The notes beneath the pieces are model-generated. The model saw nothing but the letters and a program-made list of their open reading frames with translations. It did no database searches and had not been told where the DNA came from. 22,953 bases of DNA, from the NCBI GenBank assembly GCA_002343455.1, contig DDSR01000113.1:4666-27618 (forward strand), in the 5' to 3' direction. Below, in pieces: positions 8,188 to 22,876 of the stretch. Position numbers and translations under genes: made by a program. Positions within the stretch are counted from its first letter, which is position 1; each line of letters opens with the position of its first letter. The stretch comes from Deltaproteobacteria bacterium UBA2385. Lineage in GTDB: Bacteria; Myxococcota_A; UBA796; UBA2385.

Positions 8188-10323
8188 ATGGAACTCCTGA
8201 CGCTGTACACCGCGATGCTTCGACGAAAGTGGATCATCGTCCAGGCGTTGGTGGTCTTCTCGGTCGGCGCGGTCCTCCTCTCCCTGGTCCTCCCCAAGAA
8301 CTTCCGGACGGCCTCCCGGGTACTCGTCAGCACCAGCACCTCCGAGCTCTCCATCCTCAACGAGATGGACCTGGGTGAGATCGCCTCCAGCCTGGGCGAC
8401 TCGGACGACATCCAGAACAAGATCACGCTGGCCACGACGCGCCCGGTCCTGGACGAGGTCATCTGGCTGCTCCAGCTGCGGGACTCAGACGGTCGGCTGC
8501 TGACCGCGGAAGAGCTCCTGGTGCCGGGCACCTTCGGTGAACTCCAGGCCAACCCGAACCTCAGCGTGACCCAGCAGTCCGGCACCGACCTGCTCTACTT
8601 CGAGGCCCGCGCCAACGATCCCGAGCTGGCTCGGCTGATCTCGGACACCGCGGTGGAGGTCTCGGTCCGGCGCGCCCAGCTTCGGGCCCGCCAGGACACC
8701 ACCAACGCGCGCATCTTCATCGAAGAGCAGCTCGCGGTGGTGCGCGGCGAGTTCGACCAGGCCCTGGCCGACATCGCCGAGGCGCAGGCCGTGGAAGAGG
8801 TCATCGATCTCGAGAACGAGCTGAAGGCCGCCATCTCGCGGCTCTCCGAGCTGATGCTCGCCTACGAGCAGAACGCCGCGCAGATCCAGGAGGTCCGGGC
8901 GCGCCTGACCCTGCAGCGCAGCTTCCAGGGCAAGGAGTCGTCGACCCAGGTCTCGGCCATCACCCTGCAGGCCAACCGCACGGTGTCGCAGCTCCAGGAG
9001 CGCATGTCCGAGCTGCGCCTGCAGCGCGCGACCGAGCTGAACGACAAGACCCCGCAACACCCGGTGATCGCGGACATCGACCGCCTCATCGCGGCGACCG
9101 AGGCGGACCTCTCCGAGGCGATGCGGGTGCAGCACGAGCTGGATCCCAGCGTGCAGGCGCTGGAGTCGCAGCTGGCGGGCCTGGTGAAGAAGGGCGCCGA
9201 GATCGACCAGTCGATCCAGAAGACGACCGAGCAGTTCAGCGAGTATCCCGACAAGATGCGGCGGATGAGCCAGCTGCGGATGGCAGCCGACGCCGCCGAG
9301 ACCGTCTTCAAGTCGCTGCAGGAGCAGAACTACCAGGTCGGCGTGGCCGACGCGATGCTGGTCAGCGACATGCAGCTGGTCGAGGCCGCGCTGGCCCCCG
9401 AGCGCCACTACAGCCCCAAGATCGTGGTCAACCTCGCCATCGGGATCTTCTGCGGGCTGGTGTTCGGCTTCGGGCTGGCCCTGCTGCTGGAGTACGTCGA
9501 CGACACGGTGCGGACCCCCGACGACCTCAGCGCCATCTGGGACATCCCCAAGCTGGGGATGGTGCCCCGCTTCAAGCTGACCGCTGAGCGTCGCGTCATC
9601 GACGAGCTGGCCACCACCCACCCCATCGCCGAGGTCTATCGGACCATCCGCAATGGCCTGATGTTCGCCTCGCTGGACAAGCCGTTGCGCCTGATCGCCG
9701 TCAGCTCGGCGGTCCCCAGCGAGGGAAAGAGCACCTTCGCGGTCAACCTCGCGATCAGCTTCGCGCGGGACGGAAAGCGGGTGCTGATCGTGGACTGCGA
9801 TCTTCGTCGCCCGGCGCAGCATCGGCACTTCCAGACCATCTCGAACCACCTCGGCCTGACCGATGTGCTGACCGGGAAGGCCACGGTCGAGCAGGCCGAG
9901 CAGCGCACGACCGTCGACGGCCTGACGATGCTGACCAGCGGCCCGACCCCGTCGGATCCGGCGCGCCTCGTCGAGAGCCTGCGCTTGCGTCAGCTGCTGC
10001 TCGATCTGCGCAAGGCCTACGACATCGTCATCGTCGACACCCCGCCCTGCATGGTGGTCAACGACTCGATCGTCATCGGCCGGGTCGTGGACGGCATGAT
10101 CCTGGTGGTGGAGAGCGCCAACACCAGCCGCAAGCTGGTGGCCGACATGAAGTCGCGCTTCGAGGTCGCCGGGCTGGAGCCGACGGGGCTGGTCCTCAAC
10201 AAGCTGGACTTCGTCAGCAGCGGCTACGGCTACTACTACAAGGCCTACCGGCGCTACGGCGGCGAGGAGGGCACCCAGGACATCACGCCGGCTGCCCCGG
10301 CCGAAGGCGGAGGTGCGGCATGA
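8188..10323 (+). CDS. wzc: Wzc-like polysaccharide co-polymerase and BY-type tyrosine autokinase
   Basis: 711 residues. A Wzz-type N-terminus has a membrane helix at about 14-36, followed by a long periplasmic coiled coil (about 170-400) and a second helix at about 411-436. The cytoplasmic BY-kinase domain carries Walker A (PSEGKST, about 510-516), Walker A' (VLIVDCDLRRP from 532) and Walker B (IVIVDTPP from about 613). It ends in a tyrosine cluster: Tyr680, 682, 683, 684, 687 and 690. In known systems the kinase autophosphorylates this tail, and cycling of phosphorylation with a phosphatase controls chain length and export together with Wza. No Wzb-type phosphatase lies in the window. The start ATG at 8188 has only a weak ribosome-binding site (GGAT). 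Its stop overlaps the next gene by four bases (ATGA). Confidence 0.94.
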   Translation: MELLTLYTAMLRRKWIIVQALVVFSVGAVLLSLVLPKNFRTASRVLVSTSTSELSILNEMDLGEIASSLGDSDDIQNKITLATTRPVLDEVIWLLQLRDSDGRLLTAEELLVPGTFGELQANPNLSVTQQSGTDLLYFEARANDPELARLISDTAVEVSVRRAQLRARQDTTNARIFIEEQLAVVRGEFDQALADIAEAQAVEEVIDLENELKAAISRLSELMLAYEQNAAQIQEVRARLTLQRSFQGKESSTQVSAITLQANRTVSQLQERMSELRLQRATELNDKTPQHPVIADIDRLIAATEADLSEAMRVQHELDPSVQALESQLAGLVKKGAEIDQSIQKTTEQFSEYPDKMRRMSQLRMAADAAETVFKSLQEQNYQVGVADAMLVSDMQLVEAALAPERHYSPKIVVNLAIGIFCGLVFGFGLALLLEYVDDTVRTPDDLSAIWDIPKLGMVPRFKLTAERRVIDELATTHPIAEVYRTIRNGLMFASLDKPLRLIAVSSAVPSEGKSTFAVNLAISFARDGKRVLIVDCDLRRPAQHRHFQTISNHLGLTDVLTGKATVEQAEQRTTVDGLTMLTSGPTPSDPARLVESLRLRQLLLDLRKAYDIVIVDTPPCMVVNDSIVIGRVVDGMILVVESANTSRKLVADMKSRFEVAGLEPTGLVLNKLDFVSSGYGYYYKAYRRYGGEEGTQDITPAAPAEGGGAA

Positions 10324-10841
10324 CGCTGGCGCTCACGTTGCTGCTGGCCTGTGGGCCGGACGCGGAGTCGGTGGCCCTTCAGCTCGCCTCCGAGAACCCG
10401 GCCATTCGAGAGGACTCGGCCCGCCGGGCCCGCAACTTCGACTCGCCCCTGGTGATCGAGGGGCTCATCAAGTCGCTGGACGATCCCTCCGAGAAGGTCC
10501 GCTCCCACGCCGTGGACAGCCTGATCGCCCTGAACGCCAAAGAGGCGGTCCCTCGGCTGGTGTTGCACATGAGCGAGGACAGCTCACCCCTGGTGCGCCG
10601 CCAGTGCATCGACGCGGTCGGTCGGCTGGGGGATCCGAGCGCCGTCCCCGCCTTGATCGCCCTGCTCGAGGCAGCTGAAGCCCAGACGCCGCCGGCGCCG
10701 CCCCTCAACGCCATCTGGGCGCTCGGCGAGCTCGGCGACATGAGCGCGCTGGCGGTGCTCTCCCGGCTCCGGGACAGCCGCGATCCCTACGTCGCCTACA
10801 ACGCCAACCAGGCGCTCCGAAAGCTCCGCCCGGGGACCTGA
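10320..10841 (+). CDS. HEAT-repeat protein coupled to the kinase gene
   Basis: 173 residues. The start MTLALTLLLACGPDAES resembles a lipoprotein signal with lipobox LLAC, but it is only ten residues before the Cys and has no basic residue, so anchoring is doubtful. The rest is a ladder of HEAT or PBS-lyase-type helical repeats. Typical units are PLVIEGLIKSLDDPSEKVRS, PLVRRQCIDAVGRLGDPSAV and LNAIWALGELGDMSA. These solenoids bind other proteins. The ATG overlaps the stop of the Wzc-like kinase (ATGA), so the two are co-translated. A role in assembling or regulating the export machine is inferred from that only. No in-frame upstream start was found that would lengthen the signal peptide. Confidence 0.82.
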   Translation: MTLALTLLLACGPDAESVALQLASENPAIREDSARRARNFDSPLVIEGLIKSLDDPSEKVRSHAVDSLIALNAKEAVPRLVLHMSEDSSPLVRRQCIDAVGRLGDPSAVPALIALLEAAEAQTPPAPPLNAIWALGELGDMSALAVLSRLRDSRDPYVAYNANQALRKLRPGT

Positions 10842-10870: not shown

Positions 10871-11977
10871 TCAGTAGGGCTCGGGGCCCACTGCGTCGAT
10901 CTCCCGCCCCAGCGGCCAGCGGCCCCACTGCTGGGGCAGGTGCCAGCCCAGCTCGGCGCGGAGCGAGATCCCGGCGATCCACTCGGAGGGGACGGCCGCG
11001 CGCTCGGCCTCTACGGGGCGGGCGAAGGTGTTGCGCAGCTCGGGCCGGAGGGTCCAGGGCTGCTCGAAGGGCAGGCGCACGGAGAGGCCCAGGCTGGCGG
11101 ACTCCGGCAGCACGTTCTCGGTGGCCAGGACGCGCACATTGCCCACCAGGTCGGTCTGCGGGAGCAGCCCCTGGCGGAGGGTCGCCGAGAGGCGGCTGCC
11201 GGTCCACGCCGGCTGGGCCGCGGCCTTGCGAGAGGCCTCCAGCTCCGGCATCGGCAGGCTCAGCTGCAGGCGGATCGCGTCCACCGGGAGCTGCCGCAGG
11301 TCCAGGTAGCCGGTCAGGCTCAGGCTCGGATCGAGGACGGCCTCGTCTGGATCGGCGTCGGTCAGGCGCCAGCTGGCGCCGGTGGCGAGGCTGGGTCGAG
11401 GCGGACCCGCCTGGCGGCCGTCGCTGGCCAGGATCTGCGTCTCGGCGAGGCCCTGCTCACCGGGTCGGTCGTTGTATCGCAGGCGCAGCTTGGGGCTGGG
11501 GGCGTCGGGGTCCTGCGAGCGCTGCCGCCGCCGGGGACCTTCGACCCGCAGGTGGGCGCCGCCGGCGGTGGTCACGATCCCGTGGAGGGCCTGCAGCGGG
11601 GGTGAGGCCTGCATCGTGTCGGCGAAGACGGCCGCGATCCCGGCCATGGCGCCGTACTGGGCCAGGTCCCGGGCTCGGGCGGCCTCGGCGGGGGACAGCC
11701 AGGGGGCCTCGCGGTCGAAGGCGGCGAGCCTCCACCACGCGCTCATCCCGGAGGCCGACTGCTGGTAGACCCCCGACGAGCGGCGGGAGGTCATGATCTC
11801 GCTGGTGCGCCGCTGCCACTGGATCCACAGGCTCTCGTTGGGCCGCCGCGGCGGGTCCAGATCGAGGTCCAGGTGGGGCCGAAAGGAGGTGGTCTGGGCT
11901 GTCTGGGCTGGCTGGGGCTCGGCGCCCGCGCTGGCTCCGACGAGCCACAGCCCCAGACTTCCCGTAGCGAGGATCAT
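10871..11977 (-). CDS. Unrecognised secreted protein, possibly an outer-membrane beta-barrel
   Basis: About 368 residues from the ATG at 11977, preceded by AGGGGGTAGGG as ribosome-binding sequence; an ATG nine codons upstream (12004) is less likely. MILATGSLGLWLVGASAGAEP looks like a cleavable signal peptide. I do not recognise the family. The N-terminal part is rich in Pro, Arg and Gln with a helical patch (WLSPAEAARARDLAQYG). The C-terminal half alternates hydrophobic and polar residues in strand-like blocks such as SLSLTGYLDLRQL, AIRLQLSLPMPE, NVRVLATENV and ISLRAELGWHLP, suggesting a small barrel or beta-sandwich in the envelope. It lies between the kinase/HEAT genes (convergent, 29 bases) and the Wzi-like gene (divergent, 58 bases), so a link to capsule export is plausible but unproven. 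Confidence 0.72.
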   Translation of the reverse strand: MILATGSLGLWLVGASAGAEPQPAQTAQTTSFRPHLDLDLDPPRRPNESLWIQWQRRTSEIMTSRRSSGVYQQSASGMSAWWRLAAFDREAPWLSPAEAARARDLAQYGAMAGIAAVFADTMQASPPLQALHGIVTTAGGAHLRVEGPRRRQRSQDPDAPSPKLRLRYNDRPGEQGLAETQILASDGRQAGPPRPSLATGASWRLTDADPDEAVLDPSLSLTGYLDLRQLPVDAIRLQLSLPMPELEASRKAAAQPAWTGSRLSATLRQGLLPQTDLVGNVRVLATENVLPESASLGLSVRLPFEQPWTLRPELRNTFARPVEAERAAVPSEWIAGISLRAELGWHLPQQWGRWPLGREIDAVGPEPY

Positions 11978-12035
11978 CGACCCTACCCCCTGGGAGTCTA
12001 TCACGACCCTCGCCTTGTCGTGCTAGCCTGGGCCG

Positions 12036-13577
12036 ATGCACGGATCCTCGCATCGCGGCTGGCCCTCGCACCGACGCGGCCATGGACTGGCCCTCGTCGC
12101 GCTCGGGGTCTGCGGCCTGGTCGGCTCGGCCCAGGCCCACCCGCGGCTGGACCCCTCGATTCGCATGGCCGAGCGCCTCTGCCGGCAGGAGCGGCTGGAG
12201 TGTGTGCTCGGGGCGTCGGAGCGCTCTCGCCTGAGGCTGGCCGCCTCGCTCGCGCCCTTCGAAGGCGAGCGCGAACAGGGGCGGTTCTCGTCGGTGTGGC
12301 TGGACCTCGATCCCGAGCTCGCGGTCGTCGGCAGGGAGGGCCCCGCCCTGCGGGGTGTCACCCTGCGCGCCGAGCCGGTGGGGCTGCTGGCGGCGGGCGA
12401 TCTCGTCCCGGACTATCGCAGCGGGGACGACGAGCCGGGCCTGCTCACGGCCCGGGCGGGTGGGGAGCTGCGGGTCTACCCGGCGATCTTCGAGCTCGTC
12501 GGGCGAGGCGTGGTCGGCGCGGACCTGGTCGACACCAACGCCGCCTCGCTGAACCTCTCCGAGGCCTGGGCCGGGCTCGCCTGGAAGGACCTGCGCGCGG
12601 GCTTCGGGCTTCGCCCGCGTCACCTCGGCCCGGGGCGCGCCGGGTCCTTGCTCCTGACCGACAATGGCCTGCCTTCGCCGCACGGGGCGGTCGCCTGGAC
12701 CTCACCCGGCGGACAGCGCTTCGGGCGGGTCCACCTGGACGCCGGCGCAGGCTGGATCCCGGGCGAGCGGCGCGATGTCCAGCGGCCGGGCTGGCTCTAC
12801 ATGGACGCGCGCTGGCTGCTGGTGCCCGAGGTCGAGCTCGGCATGTCCCGGGTGAGCATCTTCGGCGGCGAAGGGCGACCGGCGCCCCGGATCGGGCAGC
12901 TCCTGCTGCCGACCGACCCTCATGTCTACGGTGATCCCGACCGGGACGAGCCCGACCAGGACGAGAAGGCCAGCGTCGACCTCCGGCTGCTGTTTCCGAT
13001 CGGCCGCTGGACCGGTCTCTCCTCCTCCGGGGCGGCGCCCGACGGCCTCGACAGCCTGGAGCTGTGGTGGCAATACGGAGGGGAGGATGTGATCGCTCGT
13101 GAGGCCCTGGGCTTGCCCTACCCATCGCTGGCGGGAGTGGCCAACCTGCTCGGCGCGGAGGCCAGCGCCGGCCCGCTGGTGCTCAGCGTGGAGTACGCGC
13201 GCATCCTGGACGACACCTTTCGCTGGTACCTGGGGCACCGCGTCTACCACGACGGGTTCTACCGGGACGGCCGGCCGCTGGCCCATGCCTCGGGTGGCGA
13301 CTCGGTGAGCTGGTGGGGTGCTGCGGCCTGGGAGGGGAGGCTCCAGGGGGCCGAGCTCTCGGTCGAGCATCGGCTGCGGGTGGGGGTCATCGAGGCGCTG
13401 GGCGCCAACCTGCTGGCCCTGACCGAGGACGAGCGCCGGGTGCGCGTCGGGGTTCGGGGGTGGACCTGGACGCGGTTGGGCTATTGGACTGCCAGCGCCG
13501 AATTGGAGCGGATCGAGGGGCTCGACTTCCGCCCCGAGGCCGAGGGCTGGGGCTGGCGGCTGGCCGTGGGGCGCTGA
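12036..13577 (+). CDS. wzi: Wzi-like capsule assembly outer-membrane protein
   Basis: 513 residues. A signal peptide with basic N-region and hydrophobic core ends near GSAQA/HP. The remainder alternates strand-like blocks as in an outer-membrane barrel. Diagnostic features are FGLRPRHLGPGRAGSLLLTDN near the middle and, towards the end, RWYLGHRVYHDGFYRDGRPL with ASGGDSVSWW, matching the Wzi/CapsAssemb_Wzi pattern of an aromatic-rich G-R-x-L segment followed by G-x-D. Wzi of enteric bacteria is a barrel lectin that holds capsule at the cell surface and is about 480 residues long, close to this. It diverges from the unrecognised envelope gene; its ribosome-binding site is weak. Beside a Wza/Wzc pair, a role in surface attachment or release of the polymer is the natural reading. 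Confidence 0.8.
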   Translation: MHGSSHRGWPSHRRGHGLALVALGVCGLVGSAQAHPRLDPSIRMAERLCRQERLECVLGASERSRLRLAASLAPFEGEREQGRFSSVWLDLDPELAVVGREGPALRGVTLRAEPVGLLAAGDLVPDYRSGDDEPGLLTARAGGELRVYPAIFELVGRGVVGADLVDTNAASLNLSEAWAGLAWKDLRAGFGLRPRHLGPGRAGSLLLTDNGLPSPHGAVAWTSPGGQRFGRVHLDAGAGWIPGERRDVQRPGWLYMDARWLLVPEVELGMSRVSIFGGEGRPAPRIGQLLLPTDPHVYGDPDRDEPDQDEKASVDLRLLFPIGRWTGLSSSGAAPDGLDSLELWWQYGGEDVIAREALGLPYPSLAGVANLLGAEASAGPLVLSVEYARILDDTFRWYLGHRVYHDGFYRDGRPLAHASGGDSVSWWGAAAWEGRLQGAELSVEHRLRVGVIEALGANLLALTEDERRVRVGVRGWTWTRLGYWTASAELERIEGLDFRPEAEGWGWRLAVGR

Positions 13578-13643: not shown

Positions 13644-15743
13644 ATGAACAGCGAGAACGAATTCGAGGCCGATCTGCCGCTGATGCCGCCACGTCCTCGC
13701 GCCGCCCGGCATCGCGCAGGCCTGCTCGGCGGCTGGGTGGGCGGCCTCGTCCTCACGATGTGCGGTCCGACGCTGGGCTGCGGGAGCAAGGAGGACGAGG
13801 GTCCTGTGGTGGAGACCCCAGCCGCGCCTCCCGGTCCGCCGGTCTCCGCCTCCCCGGTCAAGGACCGGCTGGTGGTGCTGGTCGTCCCCGGCCTGGATCC
13901 CGACCTGGTGGGCCGCTGGCGGGCGGACCTCCCCAACCTGGACCGGATGGGCCCCAGCCGCTCGCTGGCCTTGCTGGCCAACGACCTGCCGCTCAGTCCT
14001 GAACATCTCTACACGCAGCTCGCCCTGAGTCGGAAGGGCGGCGCTGGCGGCGTTCCCGGGCTGGACGCCCGGGTCGGGGGCGAACCCGCGCTGACCGAGC
14101 CCTTCTGGGTGCAGGCCGCCCGCGCGGGCATCCCGACCCGCGCGATCTGGGCGCCTGGCGAGCTGCCTCAAGCCGATGTCAGCGGGCTGTGGGTCCTGCC
14201 TCAGGGCCTCGCGCCGGCCTCTGAGCTCACCCACTGGTCGATCCTGACGCCGGGGGCAGAGGCCGCGGCCGCTCCTCCGGGGAGCGCGCTCCACCTCCTC
14301 GAGGGGGCTCCGCCCTGGCAGATCAGCCTGCCGATGAAGGGGGGAGGCTCCCTGGAGCTCGAGCTGAGCAGCCCGCGAGAGGGCCTCTGGCGCTTGTCGG
14401 CCAGCCCGCTCCACCTGGATCTCAGCCGGGGCGAGCTGGCGGAGCCCGTCCGGATGACCCTCGCCGGAGGCTCGGGCGGCGAGGTGTTGACCCGCTGGGC
14501 TGTGAACCCCATGGGCGCCGGAGTAGCCATCAGCCTCGTCGCCTCTGGAAGGGGGGAGACGGCCGGCTCGGCGGTCACGGCGCCGGCCTCCCTGGCGCAG
14601 GAGTGGGCCGGCTTTCATGGCCCCGTCGACACGACCGGCGGCACGGTGGGCCTGGTCGAGGCCTACCAGGACGGATGGATCTCGACCGAGGCGCTCAGCG
14701 AGGAGCTGACGGGCGAGTTTGGTCGCCACTCGGCGATCGTGCAGGCCGAGCTCCAGCGCCAGGACGCCCGCCTCGTGGTCGCCTGGCTGCCCCAGCTCGG
14801 CATCGCGGCGCAAGCCTTCGTGGGCCTCTCCGACAGCCAGCACCCGGCCTGGGATGGAGAGCTCGCGGCCCGCTACGGCGGGATGATGAAGAGCATGGCG
14901 ACGAGCCTGGACACCGTCGTCGGGCAGCTGCGCTCGTCGCTGAATCCGGGCGATCGGATCCTGGTCGTCTCGGACCACGCCGTCGCCAGCCAGCGTTTCG
15001 CGGTCGACCTCAACGCCGTCCTGGTGGACGCCGGGCTGTTGGTCCTCAAGCCCGAGCTGGAACGCCTCTCATCGCGCGAGCTGGACGACGCCGCCACCTG
15101 GTCTCGGACGACGGCCTTCGCCGCCTCCGGCACCGCGATCTATCTCAACCAGGCCGGTCGACAGGCCTCCGGCTCGGTGCCACCAGCGAAGCGTGCGCGT
15201 GAGCTGGCGCGTGTGCGCGCGGCGGTGGCGGGGCTTCGGCACCAGGGCCGGCCGGTGGTCGCCGAGATCCTCGACGGCGCGGTCGCCTTGCCCGGCTTGC
15301 CCGAGCCGCTGCGCCCGGACCTGGTGGTCAGCTTCGCCGATGGCTACGGACCCAGCGGGGGGGCGCTGCGTGATCGGGTCGGCCTGACCGCAGTCGTGCC
15401 CGGGACCGGGCGGTTGACGGGAGGCGCGCCGAGCGCCGCTTCCCGTCGAGCCGGAATGGTCTTCGCCTCGAACGGCGCGGCCGACAGCGGCGCCCACCTC
15501 GCGGACCTCGGGCCGACGGTCTGGCGGCTGCTGGGGCTGCCGGATCGGGAGGGGCTGGAGGGCGCCGCCTGGGCGATCGCCGGACCCGCGATCACCGCCC
15601 CGCCCCCCGAGCCCGTGCTGCCTGGCGTTGCGGGCGAGCTGCCCGGCGCGCGAGGCGAGGCCCCGAGCGCGCCTGAGGCCCCGGCCGGAGGGGCCCCGAG
15701 CGCGCCTGAGGCCCCGGCCGGAGGGGCCCCGACCACGCCGTGA
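13644..15743 (+). CDS. Alkaline-phosphatase-superfamily (type I phosphodiesterase-like) envelope protein, partly degenerate
   Basis: 699 residues. A long N-terminus with one hydrophobic segment and Cys46 in TLGCGSKED suggests a lipoprotein or a single membrane anchor, so the body is periplasmic. The fold resembles PF01663: LVVLVVPGLDPDLV (Asp85 at the first metal position), LPNLDRMGP, a possible nucleophile Ser118 in LPLSPEHLYT, GLSDSQHPAW with His400, VVSDHAVA with Asp444 and His445, and GAHLADLGPTVWRLLGLP. Against the family, the Asp four residues before His400 is Ser396, and the last metal His region (usually GSHRPxG) reads AASRRAG. It may be weakly active or inactive. The end is a Pro/Ala/Gly tail with an 11-residue tandem repeat. 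Its stop overlaps the next gene. The true substrate cannot be inferred. Confidence 0.75.
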   Translation: MNSENEFEADLPLMPPRPRAARHRAGLLGGWVGGLVLTMCGPTLGCGSKEDEGPVVETPAAPPGPPVSASPVKDRLVVLVVPGLDPDLVGRWRADLPNLDRMGPSRSLALLANDLPLSPEHLYTQLALSRKGGAGGVPGLDARVGGEPALTEPFWVQAARAGIPTRAIWAPGELPQADVSGLWVLPQGLAPASELTHWSILTPGAEAAAAPPGSALHLLEGAPPWQISLPMKGGGSLELELSSPREGLWRLSASPLHLDLSRGELAEPVRMTLAGGSGGEVLTRWAVNPMGAGVAISLVASGRGETAGSAVTAPASLAQEWAGFHGPVDTTGGTVGLVEAYQDGWISTEALSEELTGEFGRHSAIVQAELQRQDARLVVAWLPQLGIAAQAFVGLSDSQHPAWDGELAARYGGMMKSMATSLDTVVGQLRSSLNPGDRILVVSDHAVASQRFAVDLNAVLVDAGLLVLKPELERLSSRELDDAATWSRTTAFAASGTAIYLNQAGRQASGSVPPAKRARELARVRAAVAGLRHQGRPVVAEILDGAVALPGLPEPLRPDLVVSFADGYGPSGGALRDRVGLTAVVPGTGRLTGGAPSAASRRAGMVFASNGAADSGAHLADLGPTVWRLLGLPDREGLEGAAWAIAGPAITAPPPEPVLPGVAGELPGARGEAPSAPEAPAGGAPSAPEAPAGGAPTTP
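15659..15724 (+). repeat. 33-base tandem repeat (two copies) in the AlkP-like gene tail
   Basis: The unit beginning GGCCCCGAGCGCGCCTGAGG occupies 15659-15691 and repeats exactly at 15692-15724; a third copy starts with GGCCCC at 15725. It encodes an 11-residue Ala/Pro/Gly/Glu/Ser unit twice. The two copies are identical in sequence, so the duplication is recent or kept uniform. Confidence 0.9.
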
Positions 15744-17596
15744 TGGAGAGGCTCTGGCAGGGCTGCGCCGGTGGGCTGCTGGCCGGCACCGGCATCGGCC
15801 TGGCCGAGGCGGTCTGGGTGCTCTCGCAGATCCCGACGGGGGAGTACGTCGCCCTAGCGGTGGGGGCCCTGGGCTACGGGCTCCTGGGGCTGCTGCTGGG
15901 CCTCGCCCATGGCGCCGTCCTGGTCCTGCTCGACGCGCTCCGGCTGCGGGCCTCGGCGCCGACGGGCTTCAGCCTCGCGGCCGTGGGGACCGGCTGCCTG
16001 CAGGGCGCCTGGGTCCTGGTCTACCAGGGCGAGCGCGCCTTCTTCATGGACGCCGGGCTCCGGGTCGCCGAGCGCTTCGCGCTCTTCGCGATCGTCGGAA
16101 TTCTGGGCCTGGTGGCGCTCTGGCTGCTGCCCGTCTTCCTGACGCGGACGCCGCTGAAGGTGCTCCTCCGCCCCCGCGGGGCCCTGGCCGCATGGGTGGC
16201 CGTGATGGGCCTCGCCGCGCTCTTTGCGGCCTCGCCGGGCACCCAGTCCTCGCTGCGGCCGGTCTTCCCCAGCAAGGACCAGGAGCCCGAGCTCGCGGCG
16301 CTCCCCGACATCGTGCTGATCAGCGTGGAGTCCTGGCGCGAGGGGGCGCGGCCCTCGCTCTCGGGCACCGACCTGCCGGGGCTCCGGACCATCGACCAGG
16401 CCGGGCTTCACTTCGCCGAGCACGTCGCGACCTCCTCCTGGTACCGCAGCAGCCTGGCCAGTCTGATGACCGGCCAGTACCCGATGGCCCATGGCGTGGA
16501 CAGCGCCGCCGCCCGCCTGGCCGAGGATCGGTTCACGTTGGCCGAGGCGCTCGCCGAGCGGGGCTTCGTCACCGGGGCTTTTCCCGCTCGGGGCGAGCTG
16601 GAGTACGCCCTGGGCTTCGAGCAGGGCTTCGACTGGCGCATCAGCCAGGCGGGCGCAGCGGGGCGGTCCCGAGCCCAGAGCGCGCGCTCCCTGCGCCTGG
16701 TGAACCGACTGCAGCTGATGCGCCGCTCCTTGGGCGGGGGCGGCAGCGTTCCCGTGGAGACGCATCGGCCGTCCCACGAGGTGGTCGCCGCTGCGCGAGG
16801 CTTCATCGACGAGGCCAGGGCCCGTGGGCTTCGCTACTTCGTGTGGCTGCACCTCGCCGAGCCGGCGCCGCCGTACCTCTCCCGAGACGGGCTCCGCTGG
16901 GTCGAGGGCCAGCCGGGCCACTCCGTCCCCGATGAACAGCGCGACGAGGTCCTCTCCCTCTACGCCGAGGAGGTCGGGGCGGTCGACTCGGCGGTCGGAG
17001 AGATGGTGACCTGGCTGCGCGCCGAGGAGGCCTGGGATCAGACCCTCTTCGTGGTCGTGGGCCTCAATGGAGCCGAGCACTTCGAGCATGGCGGCTGGGG
17101 CAGCGGCGACACCCTCTACGACGAGCAGATCCTGACGCCGCTCTACATCCGGCTTCCGGGCGATGTCCACGCCGGGCGCACCGTGCCCTGGCAGGTCAGC
17201 CTGGTCGACCTGGCGCCGACCATCGCGGCCCTGGGGGGTGTGGTCCCGCCGATGTCCTGGGAAGGCGCTCCGATCTTCGACGAGATCTTCGAGGCCTGGG
17301 CGACGGCGCCGTCGTCTCCGCCGCCCCCGGTGCGGCCGGTCATGGCCCAGCTCAACCGCCGTGGGGCGCTGGTCGAAGCGGTCCGGGCCCCGCCCTGGAA
17401 GCTGGTTCGGGCCAATGAGCGCAACCCTCGGGGCCTGCCGCTCCAGGCGGTCTTCAACCTGGGGCGAGACGGCGGAGAGCGGCACAACCTCGCCGGTCAG
17501 ATCGGTTCGCACGAGGCGGAGCTGAGCCGGATGCTGCGGGAGATCGTGGCGGGATCGGGCGCCTGGAGGACCCAGCCGGAGGCGCCGCGGCCCTGA
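15740..17596 (+). CDS. Membrane sulfatase/LTA-synthase-like protein with a lost active site (pseudoenzyme)
   Basis: 618 residues counted from GTG at 15740 (ATG at 15743 is equally possible; the two junctions are GTGA and TGATG). About five membrane helices (near 6-28, 36-66, 75-95, 114-136 and 149-166) precede a periplasmic AlkP-fold domain, the layout of LTA-synthase and phosphoethanolamine-transferase relatives. Homologous landmarks are clear: LISVESWREG, FAEHVATSSWYRSSLASLMT, YPMAHGV, EHGGWGSGDTLYDEQ, RLPG and LVDLAPTIAALGG. Catalytic residues are missing: the first metal Asp is Glu197, the nucleophile position (Cys/Ser/Thr) is Tyr235, the Asp-His of SDHGE is Leu442-Asn443, and the His of GHG is Ser455. 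It is therefore probably a binding or scaffold protein. It is co-translated with the preceding AlkP-like gene. Confidence 0.87.
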   Translation: MMERLWQGCAGGLLAGTGIGLAEAVWVLSQIPTGEYVALAVGALGYGLLGLLLGLAHGAVLVLLDALRLRASAPTGFSLAAVGTGCLQGAWVLVYQGERAFFMDAGLRVAERFALFAIVGILGLVALWLLPVFLTRTPLKVLLRPRGALAAWVAVMGLAALFAASPGTQSSLRPVFPSKDQEPELAALPDIVLISVESWREGARPSLSGTDLPGLRTIDQAGLHFAEHVATSSWYRSSLASLMTGQYPMAHGVDSAAARLAEDRFTLAEALAERGFVTGAFPARGELEYALGFEQGFDWRISQAGAAGRSRAQSARSLRLVNRLQLMRRSLGGGGSVPVETHRPSHEVVAAARGFIDEARARGLRYFVWLHLAEPAPPYLSRDGLRWVEGQPGHSVPDEQRDEVLSLYAEEVGAVDSAVGEMVTWLRAEEAWDQTLFVVVGLNGAEHFEHGGWGSGDTLYDEQILTPLYIRLPGDVHAGRTVPWQVSLVDLAPTIAALGGVVPPMSWEGAPIFDEIFEAWATAPSSPPPPVRPVMAQLNRRGALVEAVRAPPWKLVRANERNPRGLPLQAVFNLGRDGGERHNLAGQIGSHEAELSRMLREIVAGSGAWRTQPEAPRP

Positions 17597-17616
17597 GCCG
17601 ATGATCCGCTCGCCGG

Positions 17617-17634
17617 CGCCGCGGAGTCGCGGCG
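17617..17634 (+). terminator. Possible terminator hairpin
   Basis: CGCCGCG (17617-17623), a GAGT loop and CGCGGCG (17628-17634) form a perfect seven-base GC stem 20 bases after the pseudo-sulfatase stop. Only a short CATTTG follows, not a proper T run, so intrinsic termination is uncertain. The next promoter-like sequence begins ten bases later. Confidence 0.35.
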
Positions 17635-17643
17635 GCGGAGCAT

Positions 17644-17678
17644 TTGACACGCACGAATCGGCTCGCTGGCGCTATGAT
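17644..17678 (+). promoter_or_regulatory. Promoter-like elements before the M30-like gene
   Basis: A perfect TTGACA (17644-17649) and TATGAT (17673-17678) lie in the 137-base gap, but they are 23 bases apart instead of about 17, so at most one may serve as drawn. The GCTATGATGCGG context resembles the -10 regions of the other two promoters in the window. Confidence 0.3.
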
Positions 17679-17680
17679 GC

Positions 17681-17693
17681 GGGGAAGTTCCCC
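17681..17693. promoter_or_regulatory. Perfect 13-base palindrome near the predicted transcription start
   Basis: GGGGAA-G-TTCCCC begins three bases after TATGAT, where transcription would start. This is a typical place for a repressor operator. It is GC-rich, so chance occurrence is possible. Confidence 0.3.
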
Positions 17694-17733
17694 CGGGCAG
17701 GTCCCGGATGTGCCCTTCCTCGTGGAGACTCGA

Positions 17734-20451
17734 ATGACCGCCTCTCGTGCCCTCGCCCTGGTCTCGCTGCTGATGATCGGCGCCTGCCAGCCGGAAGAAC
17801 CTACCTTCGGAAAGGCGGGGGGCGGGGACGGCGGCGGCTCCGACGGTGGGACCAGCGATGGTGGCGGCGATGACGGGGGCGGCGGCGATGCCGGTGGCAG
17901 CGACGGCGGGGGGACCTCGACCTCGGGGTCCTTCGATGAGCCGGGCGACGTGGTCGAGTACACGCCCGACGACGGCCGGGCCAGCGTGGACCTGTCAGAC
18001 ACCTCGGGCGACTCCAACACCGAGCAGCAGTTCTACCTGGTGGTCGTCAACCCCGCCGACGCCGAGCTGACCTACCAGGTCCGCTACGACAGCTCGGGCT
18101 ACTCGGGCCCTGCGGCGCCGGGCACGTCTTCGGTCGCCCAGCCCGCCCGGAGGCTCTCCGCATTCCGCCAGGCGCTGCGCAATGGCCTTGGGCAGCCCCT
18201 GGCCGTCTCCGCGCCGCCCCCCAGCTTCGGCGACACCGACATCGGCATCACCCGGCGGGAGTTCCGCGTTCGGGACTCGATGGTGGACGACTCCTCCTAC
18301 ACGACCTCGTCGGCCACCCTCTGGGCGGTGGGCGAGACGGTGGCGATCTGGGTCGACGACGGCGTGCCGATCGACTGGGACTACGACTGCGACGGCGTGG
18401 TCGACCTGGCCTCGGACTACGACGCCTATGGCTTCAACAACTGCGATCTCAAGCAGATCGCCACGGTGGTGGACTACAACATCGTGCCGAACCTGCGTCG
18501 GATCTTCGGTGACGAGTCCGACGAGAACGGCGACGGGCTGGTCAGCGTGCTCATCACGCCGCAGCTCAACGTCATCAGCTACACGGCCGCGGAAGAAGAG
18601 GACCAGGGTGGCCTGGTCGGGTCCTATGCCGATCCCGAGGTTGACCTGGCCGCGTGGAATGCCACCAGCAACCCGGGCTCCAACGAGCAGGAGATCCTCT
18701 ACGTCTTCGCTCCGGATCCCTACGGCTTCCTCAACCCCGAGGCGATGGTCACGGTCGAGGAGTACACCAGCCAGGAGCTGGTGGCGCGCATCGCGGGCTC
18801 CTTCTTCAGCCTGATCTCCTACAACCAGCATGTGCTGGTGGGGGGCGGATCGCCGGAAGAGGAGTGGGTCAACCAGGGCTATGGGGCGCTCGCCGCCGAC
18901 CTGACGGGCTTCGGTGCGGTCTACTTCGCCGACGCCTGGGACTACCTCGATCGGCCGAACATCAAGTCCTTGAAGACCAGCACCGAGACCGGGGTGCTCT
19001 CGACCGAGTCGATCGGCGCTCAGTACCTGTTCGCGCGCTTCATCTACGATGTCTACGGGGAGGAGGTCTTCTCCGAGCTCGTCCAGGTGAAGGGCGCGAA
19101 AGGCACGGGCACGGGCGTCGAGACCACCGGGACGGGGCTGATCGAGCGGGTGCTGGACACCCCCTTCGAGGAGCTCGTGGTCCAGTGGCAGCTGGCCCTG
19201 CTCACCAGCGGAGTGGTCCTCGACGACGGTGAGCCCCTGGTCGACCCTGCCAAGTACCCCTCCTACGCCGAGGCCACGACGATCACGGCCCCGACCAGCT
19301 CGCCGACCGAGGGTGACCTCTTCGGAGCCAACGGCTACCAGCAGGGCGTCAACGTTCGCGGCGTCAACCGGTACATGGGCGGCGGCAGCACCGAGCGCCC
19401 CAGCGAGAGCGTCGCGCAGCGCGTCACGATGAACGGGACCGACTTCCAGACCGCGGTCACGGGCGTGGACACCTTCGGCTACATCAAGGGCGGCTACGCG
19501 GCCCAGGTGACCCGCTTGACGGACATCACCCTCGACTCGGCCCATGTGAAGATCCAGGGATCCGGCGGTGACTTCATCGGGGCCGTCGTGCGCTGGACCG
19601 ATGTCGATCCGCTCGCCCCCGACACGGTCGTCGAGCAGATCGTCTCGCCGACCAAGGTGGACAACGTCGAGCTCCCGATCCTGCCCACGGATGGCAGCCC
19701 GATCTTCGGGGTCGGGATCCTGACCGAGCCCGGCTACACCTCCGTCGTGCAGGCCGATGGCAGCTCCGAGCTGGTCTCGGTCTACGACACGGATCGCTGG
19801 CTGCTCTCGACCGAAGACTTCGAGTCGGGCAGCTCGGTCCAGGTGTCGATCCACGCTCGTCGTCGCTACGGCGGGGACACCACTCCCGGGCCCGATGAGC
19901 TCTGGCTGGCGGTGCTGCCCACCAACCTGCTGCCCGTCCCGACGGTCGAGGGCACCCAGCGCGGCTCCTGCGCCGAGGGGGTGGACTTCCAGTACCCCTC
20001 CAGCATGTTGGACTACCTCTACTACCAGCTCTTCCTCACGCCGATCAGCGGGTCGGAGGGCGTCGACTCGGCGGAGGAGTTCACCTGCGGCGAGAAGGTC
20101 GAGGACCTGAGCTGCGGCAGCGACTGGGATCGGGACGAGATCGCCGACGAGGCCGAGCTGATGCCGGAGACCTTCCTGGCTCAGCTTCACGCGATGCAGT
20201 GCACCCTGACCGGCAACGACGCCACCCTCTTCGATCGGCTGCTGCCCCAGTTCGTTTTCGACATCGACACGCTCGACTCCGATGACGAGGCCTACTTCGA
20301 CCGGGCCAACAACGTCGGCGGCATGACCGACGAGAACCTCGAGGACGCCATCGTCGTGAAGAACCTGGAGGGCGGCCAGCAGTACGTCATCGTCGTCGCC
20401 GCCGAGGGCAACACCGGCAGCTACGAGCTGCTCGTGAAGGCTCTCGACTGA
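17734..20451 (+). CDS. M30 (hyicolysin-like) metallopeptidase-fold lipoprotein lacking HExxH
   Basis: About 905 residues. The start is ATG at 17734, with GGAG seven bases upstream and the lipoprotein signal MTASRALALVSLLMIGACQP (Cys18). An ATG at 17644 would add 30 residues ahead of the signal and falls on the TTGACA. A long Gly/Asp linker follows. The core has the M30 layout: IFGDESDENGDGLVSVLITP, later ILYVFAPDPYG, then the catalytic helix and a W-x-N-E-G-like turn, then a helical W-x-x-AL segment. Where M30 enzymes have HExxH this protein reads GSFFS (355-359), and WVNQG (377-381) has Gln for Glu, so zinc catalysis is not expected. Calcium-loop-like DxDxDG motifs occur at 216-224, 263-271 and (weaker) 797-805. 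The C-terminal region is beta-rich and unassigned. The M50 protease gene starts at the next base after its stop. Confidence 0.78.
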   Translation: MTASRALALVSLLMIGACQPEEPTFGKAGGGDGGGSDGGTSDGGGDDGGGGDAGGSDGGGTSTSGSFDEPGDVVEYTPDDGRASVDLSDTSGDSNTEQQFYLVVVNPADAELTYQVRYDSSGYSGPAAPGTSSVAQPARRLSAFRQALRNGLGQPLAVSAPPPSFGDTDIGITRREFRVRDSMVDDSSYTTSSATLWAVGETVAIWVDDGVPIDWDYDCDGVVDLASDYDAYGFNNCDLKQIATVVDYNIVPNLRRIFGDESDENGDGLVSVLITPQLNVISYTAAEEEDQGGLVGSYADPEVDLAAWNATSNPGSNEQEILYVFAPDPYGFLNPEAMVTVEEYTSQELVARIAGSFFSLISYNQHVLVGGGSPEEEWVNQGYGALAADLTGFGAVYFADAWDYLDRPNIKSLKTSTETGVLSTESIGAQYLFARFIYDVYGEEVFSELVQVKGAKGTGTGVETTGTGLIERVLDTPFEELVVQWQLALLTSGVVLDDGEPLVDPAKYPSYAEATTITAPTSSPTEGDLFGANGYQQGVNVRGVNRYMGGGSTERPSESVAQRVTMNGTDFQTAVTGVDTFGYIKGGYAAQVTRLTDITLDSAHVKIQGSGGDFIGAVVRWTDVDPLAPDTVVEQIVSPTKVDNVELPILPTDGSPIFGVGILTEPGYTSVVQADGSSELVSVYDTDRWLLSTEDFESGSSVQVSIHARRRYGGDTTPGPDELWLAVLPTNLLPVPTVEGTQRGSCAEGVDFQYPSSMLDYLYYQLFLTPISGSEGVDSAEEFTCGEKVEDLSCGSDWDRDEIADEAELMPETFLAQLHAMQCTLTGNDATLFDRLLPQFVFDIDTLDSDDEAYFDRANNVGGMTDENLEDAIVVKNLEGGQQYVIVVAAEGNTGSYELLVKALD

Positions 20452-21525
20452 GTGGTTCCTCCGGCAGATTCGTTCGTGGACCCCAGGGAGACCACCAAGG
20501 ACCGCCTCGTCTCCACGGGGCTGTTCTTGTTGACCCTCCTCAGCGTCTACTGGGTCTACGGGACCCAGTGGATGGGGGGCTCGCCATTCTCGGATCCAGA
20601 AGTGGCGGCCGGGAGCGCGCGCTTCGCCGCGGGCCTGATGGGGATCCTGCTGGCGCACGAGATGGGCCACTACCTCGTCGCGCGCGCCCACGGCTTTCAG
20701 CTCTCTCTCCCCTACTTCTTGCCGCTCCCGGCCGCCTTCGGCACGATGGGGGCCATCATCCGCCTGCGCAGCCTGCCGGAGACCCGAACCGGCCTGCTGG
20801 AGATGGGCGCCGCCGGTCCGCTGGCCGGCTTCGTGGTCGCCCTGGTCCTGATGGCGCTGGGGGTGTCGGACACGGTGGAGCATGCGGCGCCGATCCTGGT
20901 GGTCGAGTCGGCCGAAGCCCTCGCCGCCCTGTTCGACGTCCAGCCAGCGGTGGCCGCCGGGGATGGGGGCTGGATGAGCGGCCCGCCGTTCACCTGGATC
21001 CTCCCCCCGGTCAGCGAGGTCCCGAGTGTCCCGCTCCTCATCCTCGCCAACCCCCTCGTCCTGGATCTGTTGGGGATGTTGATCAACGGGCAGGTGCCGG
21101 GACGCTACGCCACCTTGGATCCGCTCGCGATGGCCGGCTGGGTGGGCTGCATGGTGACCGCCATCAACCTGCTGCCGATCGGCCAGCTTGACGGTGGCCA
21201 CGTCATCAACGCCTTCGTTCCGCGCTGGGCCCCCCGGATCGCCCGCCTCGGTGTCGGCCTGGCCTTGCTCGGGGGCCTCTTCTGGACGGGCTGGGCCGTC
21301 TGGGGGGTGCTGCTCCTGGTGCTGCGAGCCTGGCGCAGCCTCCCCGTTCCGCTCTACCCGCCGCCGAGCCCGCGCTCCCGCGTGATCGGTCTCCTCTGCC
21401 TGTTGACCTTCGTCCTCTGCTTCATGCCTCGCCCCCTGGAGGTCGAGAACCTGCCGCTGGAGAAGCTCCAGCTCGTCGACCCCGACGGCCAGCCGCTCGT
21501 GGCCCCGGTCGCGCCGCCACGCTAA
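20452..21525 (+). CDS. M50-family (site-2-type) intramembrane zinc metalloprotease
   Basis: 357 residues, mostly membrane helices. The zinc motif AHEMGHYLVARAHG places His69, Glu70 and His73 in a helix, and the third ligand is Asp247 in LLPIGQLDGGH, the LDG motif of this family. PYFLPLPAAFGTMGAIIRLR and LLEMGAAGPLAGFVVALVLMA are further family landmarks. No PDZ domain is seen, and a longer loop (about 145-205) separates the two halves, resembling the EGY-like or generic bacterial site-2 protease group. Such enzymes cut membrane-anchored proteins or signal peptides inside the bilayer. The GTG start directly follows the TGA of the M30-like gene, so the two are probably co-translated. Catalytic residues look complete, unlike its three upstream neighbours. 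Its substrate is unknown. Confidence 0.9.
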   Translation: MVPPADSFVDPRETTKDRLVSTGLFLLTLLSVYWVYGTQWMGGSPFSDPEVAAGSARFAAGLMGILLAHEMGHYLVARAHGFQLSLPYFLPLPAAFGTMGAIIRLRSLPETRTGLLEMGAAGPLAGFVVALVLMALGVSDTVEHAAPILVVESAEALAALFDVQPAVAAGDGGWMSGPPFTWILPPVSEVPSVPLLILANPLVLDLLGMLINGQVPGRYATLDPLAMAGWVGCMVTAINLLPIGQLDGGHVINAFVPRWAPRIARLGVGLALLGGLFWTGWAVWGVLLLVLRAWRSLPVPLYPPPSPRSRVIGLLCLLTFVLCFMPRPLEVENLPLEKLQLVDPDGQPLVAPVAPPR

Positions 21526-21546: not shown

Positions 21547-22665
21547 ATGGCCATGCTGCACTCCATTCGTGCCCTCGCGCTAGCTGCAATGCTGCTGGCA
21601 CCGCTCCAAGCCTCTGCCGAGGTCTGGGTCGAGAGCGGGCCGATGAGCGATCGTAAGGCGGTCGAAGACCTCGCCGAGGGGCTCTCCCTGGAGGCAGGGG
21701 GGAGCACCGTCAAGGTGGTGCGGCGTTTCGTCCGGGGGAGCGGTTGGCAGTTCCTGCTCAGGGTCGAGGGGGCGCTGGACTACGAAGCCGGCGCCGCTGT
21801 CGCACGCAGCATCCAGGCCGCCGGGGGCCGCGGCCTGGTGATCGAGCAGTCCGATGGAGACCCGACGGTGTTGCTGGACACCGGCCTGCCCACCGCCGCG
21901 CCCGTCCGGCCCGCCGAGTCGGCCCCGGGGTCGGAAGACGGCCGGAAGGCTCCCGATGTGCGGGCCTTGCTCCGGGGAGCGGTGCGCAGCCACGGCGGCG
22001 AACGCGGGGGGCTCGACACCGTCGCCCATGCCGACAGCGCCATCCTCGTCTTCCGCCGCGAGATCCCCGTGGACGACGGGCTGCTCATCTCGACCAACCG
22101 CTTCTATCGATCGGGGCAGGCGGTCCGGCTCGAGGTCGAGATCGTCGAGGGGCCGGGGAGCGACAGCACCACGCTGGTCACCGCGCAGAACGCAGCGTGG
22201 GTTCGCACCGAGGCCGAGCCGATCGCCCGCGATCCGGCCCGGGCGCGTGAGGTGCTCGCGCGTTTCGCCCCGGAGTCGGTCCTGGCCATCCCCCTGGGCC
22301 TCGCGCGCGACATCACCGAAGACTCCGCCTGGTCCGACCTCGCGCTGCACCCCTCGACGGATCCGAAGTCCGGACGGGTCTCGGTCAGCCCGGTCGAGCC
22401 GTCGAGAGAGGGCCTGCAGAGCGCCGAGTTCACTCGTGACGACCAGCTCCTGGTGAGCCTGCAGTGGTCGGGCCCCTCGGGCCTGCTCGCCTTTGGCTTC
22501 GGCGACTACCGCGAGGTCGCGCCCTCCGTCGTGGTGCCCTGGTCGCTGACGATCGAGCGGAACGGGCAGCTCGTAGAGCGAATCCAGATCGAGCGCTTCG
22601 AGATCGACGTGCCCGTGGCACCCTCGATCATGATGGAGCTCGGAGAGACCAACAAGGCTCCCTGA
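21547..22665 (+). CDS. Secreted protein of unknown function (SPOR-like N-part, LolA-like C-part)
   Basis: 372 residues with a cleavable signal peptide (cleavage near ASAEVW). Residues about 25-100 show a repeated strand-helix-strand pattern (VWVESGPMSDRKAVEDLAE, then WQFLLRVEGALDYEAGAAVA) reminiscent of SPOR domains, which bind septal peptidoglycan. This is only a resemblance. After a Pro-rich linker, the C-terminal half has the alternating strands of a LolA-like beta sheet, with GFGDYREVAPSVVVPWSLTI and IQIERFEIDVPVAP similar in shape to outer-membrane lipoprotein-sorting proteins. I cannot name the family with confidence. The gene follows the protease by 21 bases and a GGGG lies upstream of the ATG; MLHSIR at 21553 is an alternative start. 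It ends six bases before the tRNA promoter. Confidence 0.78.
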   Translation: MAMLHSIRALALAAMLLAPLQASAEVWVESGPMSDRKAVEDLAEGLSLEAGGSTVKVVRRFVRGSGWQFLLRVEGALDYEAGAAVARSIQAAGGRGLVIEQSDGDPTVLLDTGLPTAAPVRPAESAPGSEDGRKAPDVRALLRGAVRSHGGERGGLDTVAHADSAILVFRREIPVDDGLLISTNRFYRSGQAVRLEVEIVEGPGSDSTTLVTAQNAAWVRTEAEPIARDPARAREVLARFAPESVLAIPLGLARDITEDSAWSDLALHPSTDPKSGRVSVSPVEPSREGLQSAEFTRDDQLLVSLQWSGPSGLLAFGFGDYREVAPSVVVPWSLTIERNGQLVERIQIERFEIDVPVAPSIMMELGETNKAP

Positions 22666-22749: not shown

Positions 22750-22822
22750 GCTGGCGTAGCTCAACTGGCAGAGCAGCTGTTTTGTAAACAGCAGGTTGCG
22801 GGTTCAAGTCCCACCGCCAGCT
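22750..22822 (+). tRNA. tRNA-Thr (anticodon UGU)
   Basis: All arms can be drawn: acceptor GCTGGCG with CGCCAGC, D stem GCTC with GAGC, anticodon stem GCTGT with ACAGC, and loop TTTGTAA with anticodon TGT at 22783-22785. The T arm is GCGGG with CCCAC around TTCAAGT. CCA is not encoded (CCC follows the discriminator T). One mismatch, C22799 against A22813, lies in the T stem. The clean acceptor pairing and the neighbouring tRNA-Tyr make it a real gene, not an ORF. Confidence 0.95.
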
Positions 22823-22876
22823 CCCAGTTGAAGCGCTCAAGTGCAGGAACCTTCGGACTCCTTTGACAGCGCAGTA

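Follow-up and report, generated by a model that had tools for sequence, protein, structure and literature searches.

Three neighbouring envelope proteins of a Myxococcota_A bacterium lost their catalytic residues at different times

The locus and its three proteins

A stretch of 22,953 nucleotides from Deltaproteobacteria bacterium UBA2385 (GenBank assembly GCA_002343455.1, contig DDSR01000113.1, positions 4,666 to 27,618), hereafter the window, is part of contig C76 in a 6.76 Mb assembly that is 88% complete. At 13644..20451 it carries three neighbouring envelope open reading frames (ORFs), here called P1, P2 and P3, whose reading frames were confirmed by an ORF check of the window. They are three maintained pseudoenzyme-like proteins, not decayed genes, and their catalytic residues were lost anciently in P3, repeatedly in P2 and recently in P1. 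The comparison set comprised 58 genomes including the window's own, whose genus has three members (the window, G001 and G002); the named relatives are uncultured Myxococcota, 'Deltaproteobacteria' and similar.

13644..15743, + strand: P1, lipoprotein with a degenerate PF01663 domain; lipobox Cys46 (by eye)
15740..17596, + strand: P2, five predicted membrane helices and a periplasmic domain of S1-sulfatase fold; catalytic site lost
16328..17104, + strand: former active site of P2, with Glu197 (codon at 16328), Tyr235 (16442), Glu286 (16595), Ala376-Pro377 (16865-16870), Leu442-Asn443 (17063-17068) and Ser455 (17102)
17644..20451, + strand: P3, lipoprotein; likely start 17734, lipobox Cys at 17785 (by eye)
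18796..18810, + strand: former zinc motif of P3, GSFFS replacing HExxH
18874-18876, + strand: third-ligand position of P3, Gln411 instead of Glu

The initial annotation of this DNA had described three enzyme folds that lack catalytic residues, and its residue readings were confirmed throughout. P1, said to have lost at least two metal-site residues, carries Pro82, Gly386, Gln390 and Asp455 at metal-ligand positions of the two-metal site of PF01663 phosphodiesterases; in P2, Tyr235, Leu442, Asn443 and Ser455 stand where S1 sulfatases have a Cys/Ser (or Thr) nucleophile and metal ligands; P3 has neither HExxH nor the downstream Glu. As to families, P1 matches PF01663 (35.3 bits against a cut-off of 23), P2 passes the cut-off of PF00884 and has the S1 sulfatase fold, and P3, with a recognizable M30 fold, matches no model in Pfam or NCBIfam. 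NCBIfam gave no match for P1 and only matches below threshold for P2, and a PDB sequence search with P1 alone returned nothing at E up to 1. Homologues with intact residues, which were also sought, exist for P2 and, distantly, for P1, and none was found for P3.

An AlphaFold2 (AF2) model predicts that P2 consists of five helices and a domain of the alkaline phosphatase (AP) superfamily. Combined with a Thr nucleophile, five helices and a periplasmic AP-superfamily domain are what we take to be the layout of phosphoglycerol and phosphoethanolamine transferases.

Repeated loss of core residues in P2

P2 is matched at E up to 1e-20 in 49 of the 58 genomes. Its active site was classified in one family of 45 rows, with a single row per genome and matches of 110 bits or less left unused; the rows dropped were a C-terminal fragment from G002 (with Thr-Gln in place of the Asp-His pair), both pieces of a G013 copy that is split over two frames, and five rows belonging to a separate clade. 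The core positions Asp, Thr, Asp, His and His are all kept in 32 rows. They are not in the other 13, all with open frames, which form three groups: the window, G001, G020 and G026; G034, G036, G046 and G057; and G010, G027, G030, G038 and G042. Within each group the lost residues vary. The last His is gone in 12 of the 13 and is the sole core loss in G026, and five rows lost two residues.

Core catalytic residues have been lost independently in at least three P2 lineages, the window's among them: a tree that excludes the active-site columns requires at least three changes, and a single degraded clade is rejected (p-AU 1.2e-63), with the placement of G034, which sits on a long branch, being unsure. 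An Asn and an Asp column that played no part in the classification are kept in at least 31 of the 32 intact rows and in none of the degraded ones. Among the database matches listed, the 12 proteins nearest to the window's P2 (its own copy included) lost two to five core residues, and the next six relatives keep all five.

P1 and P3

Full-length P1 occurs in three of the 58 genomes, all of the window's genus, and a database search returned eight proteins besides its own copy. In P1 of G001, of G002 and in six of these eight (one being G002's own) the first metal Asp is gone, as are the second Asp and His; at these residues P0128 shows an intermediate state, whereas P0129, a distant relative, looks intact. 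In the wider order there are lipoprotein-sized PF01663 relatives with intact residues, often two of them adjacent. The single stop flagged in the homologues of G001 and G002 merely closes the frame. P1 is a recent lipoprotein of P2's superfamily that likewise lost metal ligands. As a separate observation, the whole assembly of G000 holds 18 PF01663 matches, some clustered on one contig.

P3 comprises a Gly/Asp/Ser-rich linker, an M30-fold domain and a C-terminal PPC/collagen-binding-like domain. HExxH is present in none of its 30 members in the order and in none of the 120 database relatives among the matches listed, and its state is therefore old; the third-ligand Glu is found in 42 of those 120. 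Re-use of the former zinc site is not supported, its positions ranking 204 to 353 of 360 in conservation, no higher than the rest. Judged by these sequences, P3 is an M30-fold family of this order that has no zinc motif. Two genes follow it:

20452..21525, + strand: M50 (site-2-like) membrane protease, operon neighbour of P3; HEMGH and LDGG present
21547..22665, + strand: P5, secreted protein, conserved neighbour of P3

The protease, already taken to be intact, matches PF02163 (69.9 bits against 27.2), and its relatives have HExxH in 21 of 21 cases and LDG in 17 of 21; among the four that lack LDG, one is truncated by a contig end. Relatives of P5 match SPOR (16/32) or LolA-like (2/32) families, and the window's P5 matches neither. 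In 38 named loci, many of them short stretches, M50 was seen in 21, P2 in four and P1 in none; in 14 (L142, L154, L159-L161, L163-L168, L170-L172) P3 and P5 are adjacent and no M50 gene was detected between the two. By these counts the M50 gene goes with the P3-P5 operon and not with the trio. P3 is probably a binding module at the surface, acting with P5. Just downstream of P5 lies a tRNA-Thr (TGT) gene (22750-22824, + strand).

The exopolysaccharide locus

The capsule genes noted previously beside the trio include a Wzi-type gene upstream of P1 and P2:

8188..10841, + strand: Wzc-like co-polymerase/kinase (named by reading the sequence only) and HEAT-repeat protein (by Pfam)
12036..13577, + strand: Wzi-type capsule assembly protein

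In many genomes P2 adjoins such exopolysaccharide (EPS) locus genes (Wzc-like, HEAT). The short HEAT-repeat protein (10320-10841, + strand) overlaps the end of the Wzc-like gene and follows it again in EPS loci of this order. The opposite strand carries, between HEAT and Wzi, a gene of no known family (10871-12004, - strand); G001, G002, G003, G006, G008 and G026 have relatives in an identical or comparable position. Near four P2 copies outside EPS loci (L198, L181, L130, L111), no common partner appeared when 10 neighbour proteins were searched with Pfam.

Interpretation

We favour, with a probability of about 0.55, the reading that three maintained pseudoenzymes of different ages came to lie side by side in one lineage, P2 being a former EPS enzyme that now serves as a putative sensor or scaffold. 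What is shown for P2 is that residues were lost, that the tree makes these losses independent, that the fold is predicted, that linkage exists and that the ratio of nonsynonymous to synonymous substitution rates (dN/dS) is below 1 where measured. P2 would descend from an inner-membrane EPS-locus enzyme with five helices, a periplasmic AP-superfamily domain and a Thr nucleophile; core residues disappeared in at least three lineages, with the membrane part, the fold and the place beside EPS genes kept. The dead protein may still bind the EPS chain or its lipid-linked precursor, and would be a candidate subunit for sensing or scaffolding within the Wzc/Wzi export machine. The older P3, a surface lipoprotein of this order, could be a binding scaffold together with P5, and the intact-looking M50 protease, present in about half of the loci, may act on P3 or its partners. 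It is a more speculative and rather doubtful proposition that P2 is an evolutionary switch, repeatedly turned from decorating enzyme to polymer sensor with its membrane part, fold and operon place retained, and that, in the window's lineage, P1 and P3 joined it in a non-catalytic envelope complex watched by a working M50 protease.

Several observations weigh against the favoured reading. The association of P2 loss with EPS linkage cannot reach significance because there are too few independent pairs (three); six EPS-linked copies are intact, and some intact copies sit outside the EPS locus, which is therefore not P2's only home. Some degraded P2 proteins retain four (G026) or three of the five core residues, so that activity is possible there. 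The binding roles of P1, P2 and P3 are putative, and YejM, a comparable protein, is reported in PMC7576196 as an active metallophosphatase. Moreover, 50 of 72 near-invariant P2 columns changed in at least one degraded row (site columns and their neighbours included), which fits relaxed constraint too.

This last point would suit a P2 that is relaxing, its EPS decoration lost and the protein a relic heading for loss, as would the several degraded branches that are longer than most intact ones. dN/dS is 0.52 for the window and G001, in line with relaxation, but 0.08 in the closest degraded pair, values that cover P2, with dS high and YN00 failing for 13 of 14 pairs. The 13 open frames, the 22 near-invariant columns kept in 13/13, and the retention of P2 by three lineages and by the 12 database proteins nearest to it also speak against a relic, an outcome that we consider unlikely.

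Alternative explanations

The initial annotation had further proposed that P1, P2 and P3 were recruited together as surface scaffolds or receptors, alongside the M50 protease. The trio occurs in the same order in all three genus members, with catalytic residues gone where readable (P2 of G002 is in pieces only), but not beyond the genus among the 58 genomes. Two members (G001 and G002) have the trio on split contigs; the two G001 contigs show no exact end overlap, and the 26 bases that they share (by eye) if one contig's last base is omitted are a mere hint of adjacency. Database relatives of all three proteins are apparently co-located once (an equal size of 24384 was taken as the same contig), and five further apparent contigs, equated by size, hold relatives of two. 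Against common recruitment, P3 is without HExxH family-wide and mostly lies away from P1 and P2, and P2 loss is also seen where no full-length P1 was found. P1 and P2, whose ORFs share four bases in the window, are also direct neighbours in G001 and G002, but in G002 a glycosyltransferase gene (GT4) and an intact-looking PF01663 phosphodiesterase separate P2 from P3, the latter (L103:4977-6668, - strand, 109.7 bits, intact-looking motifs) lying between degraded P2 and the GT4 gene. A glycosyltransferase stands between P2 and P3 in G003, G006 and G026 also. Given these intervening genes, the tight trio of the window looks like the product, within one lineage, of one gain (P1) and a local loss of what lay between P2 and P3. 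With an old state in P3, repeated loss in P2 and a P1 confined to the genus, joint recruitment was not upheld and appears improbable. The stronger results are the repeated core-residue losses in P2, a membrane protein family of the EPS locus, and the M30-fold family P3 with its missing zinc motif.

It is more improbable still that P1-P3 are enzymes after all, using unusual catalytic residues or another chemistry. Glu197 of P2 could still hold a metal and is Glu in all 12 nearest relatives, P1 retains Ser118 and Asp444-His445, and the YejM report points the same way. However, close relatives have Tyr, Arg, His or Leu, or have kept Thr, at the P2 nucleophile position, and the replacements of the P3 motif vary likewise (GSFFS, RSFTT, QSLYR and others), which argues that no single new site took their place. 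Decaying pseudogenes, which the initial annotation had set aside, or assembly errors are hardly credible: beyond the missing residues there is only the G013 copy of P2, split over two frames with its residues kept. On the other side stand the length of the open frames, their presence in many separate assemblies, conserved gene order and a dN/dS below 1.

Comparison with known systems

The open-access papers searched included none on sulfatase-type pseudoenzymes with EPS, on inactive sulfatases with capsule, on LtaS with EPS, on pseudoenzymes in Myxococcota or on Wzi and sulfatases in Myxococcus. PbgA/YejM/LapC, which acts on LapB/FtsH and LpxC, is an inner-membrane regulator of lipopolysaccharide (LPS) with an AP-superfamily periplasmic domain, and five helices and an AP domain are also predicted for P2 by AF2. 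P2 matches three Pfam families at E up to 0.1, and the N-terminal DUF3413, presumably a YejM-specific domain, is none of them. PMC7773988 and PMC7240159 state that PbgA/YejM lacks catalytic placement; because PMC7576196 opposes them, this parallel, the closest for P2, is contested. By analogy, P2 may bind EPS or its precursor as a sensing or scaffolding subunit, as argued for PbgA/YejM with LPS.

LtaS/EptA-type phospholipid-to-glycan transferases presumably share with intact P2 orthologues five helices, a Thr nucleophile and the Asp/Asp/His/His pattern, whereas the window's P2 lacks Thr, Asp, His and His. Unlike M30 metallopeptidases (hyicolysin, lugdulysin 7bb8), P3 has no HExxH in any relative examined, and it adds a lipoprotein anchor, a long acidic linker and extra beta and PPC domains. 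It resembles metallopeptidase pseudoenzymes, in which a protease fold is kept for binding without a zinc site (PMC11266112). M30 is not mentioned in the main text of that review, and with P3 comes an M30-fold family of this order in which the listed members are without the zinc motif. The conversion of an enzyme into a pseudoenzyme is usually seen once, after the event. Here there are at least three independent transitions, and at one locus related genera carry either intact or degraded orthologues, so that one can ask what a membrane enzyme does in its pathway beyond catalysis.
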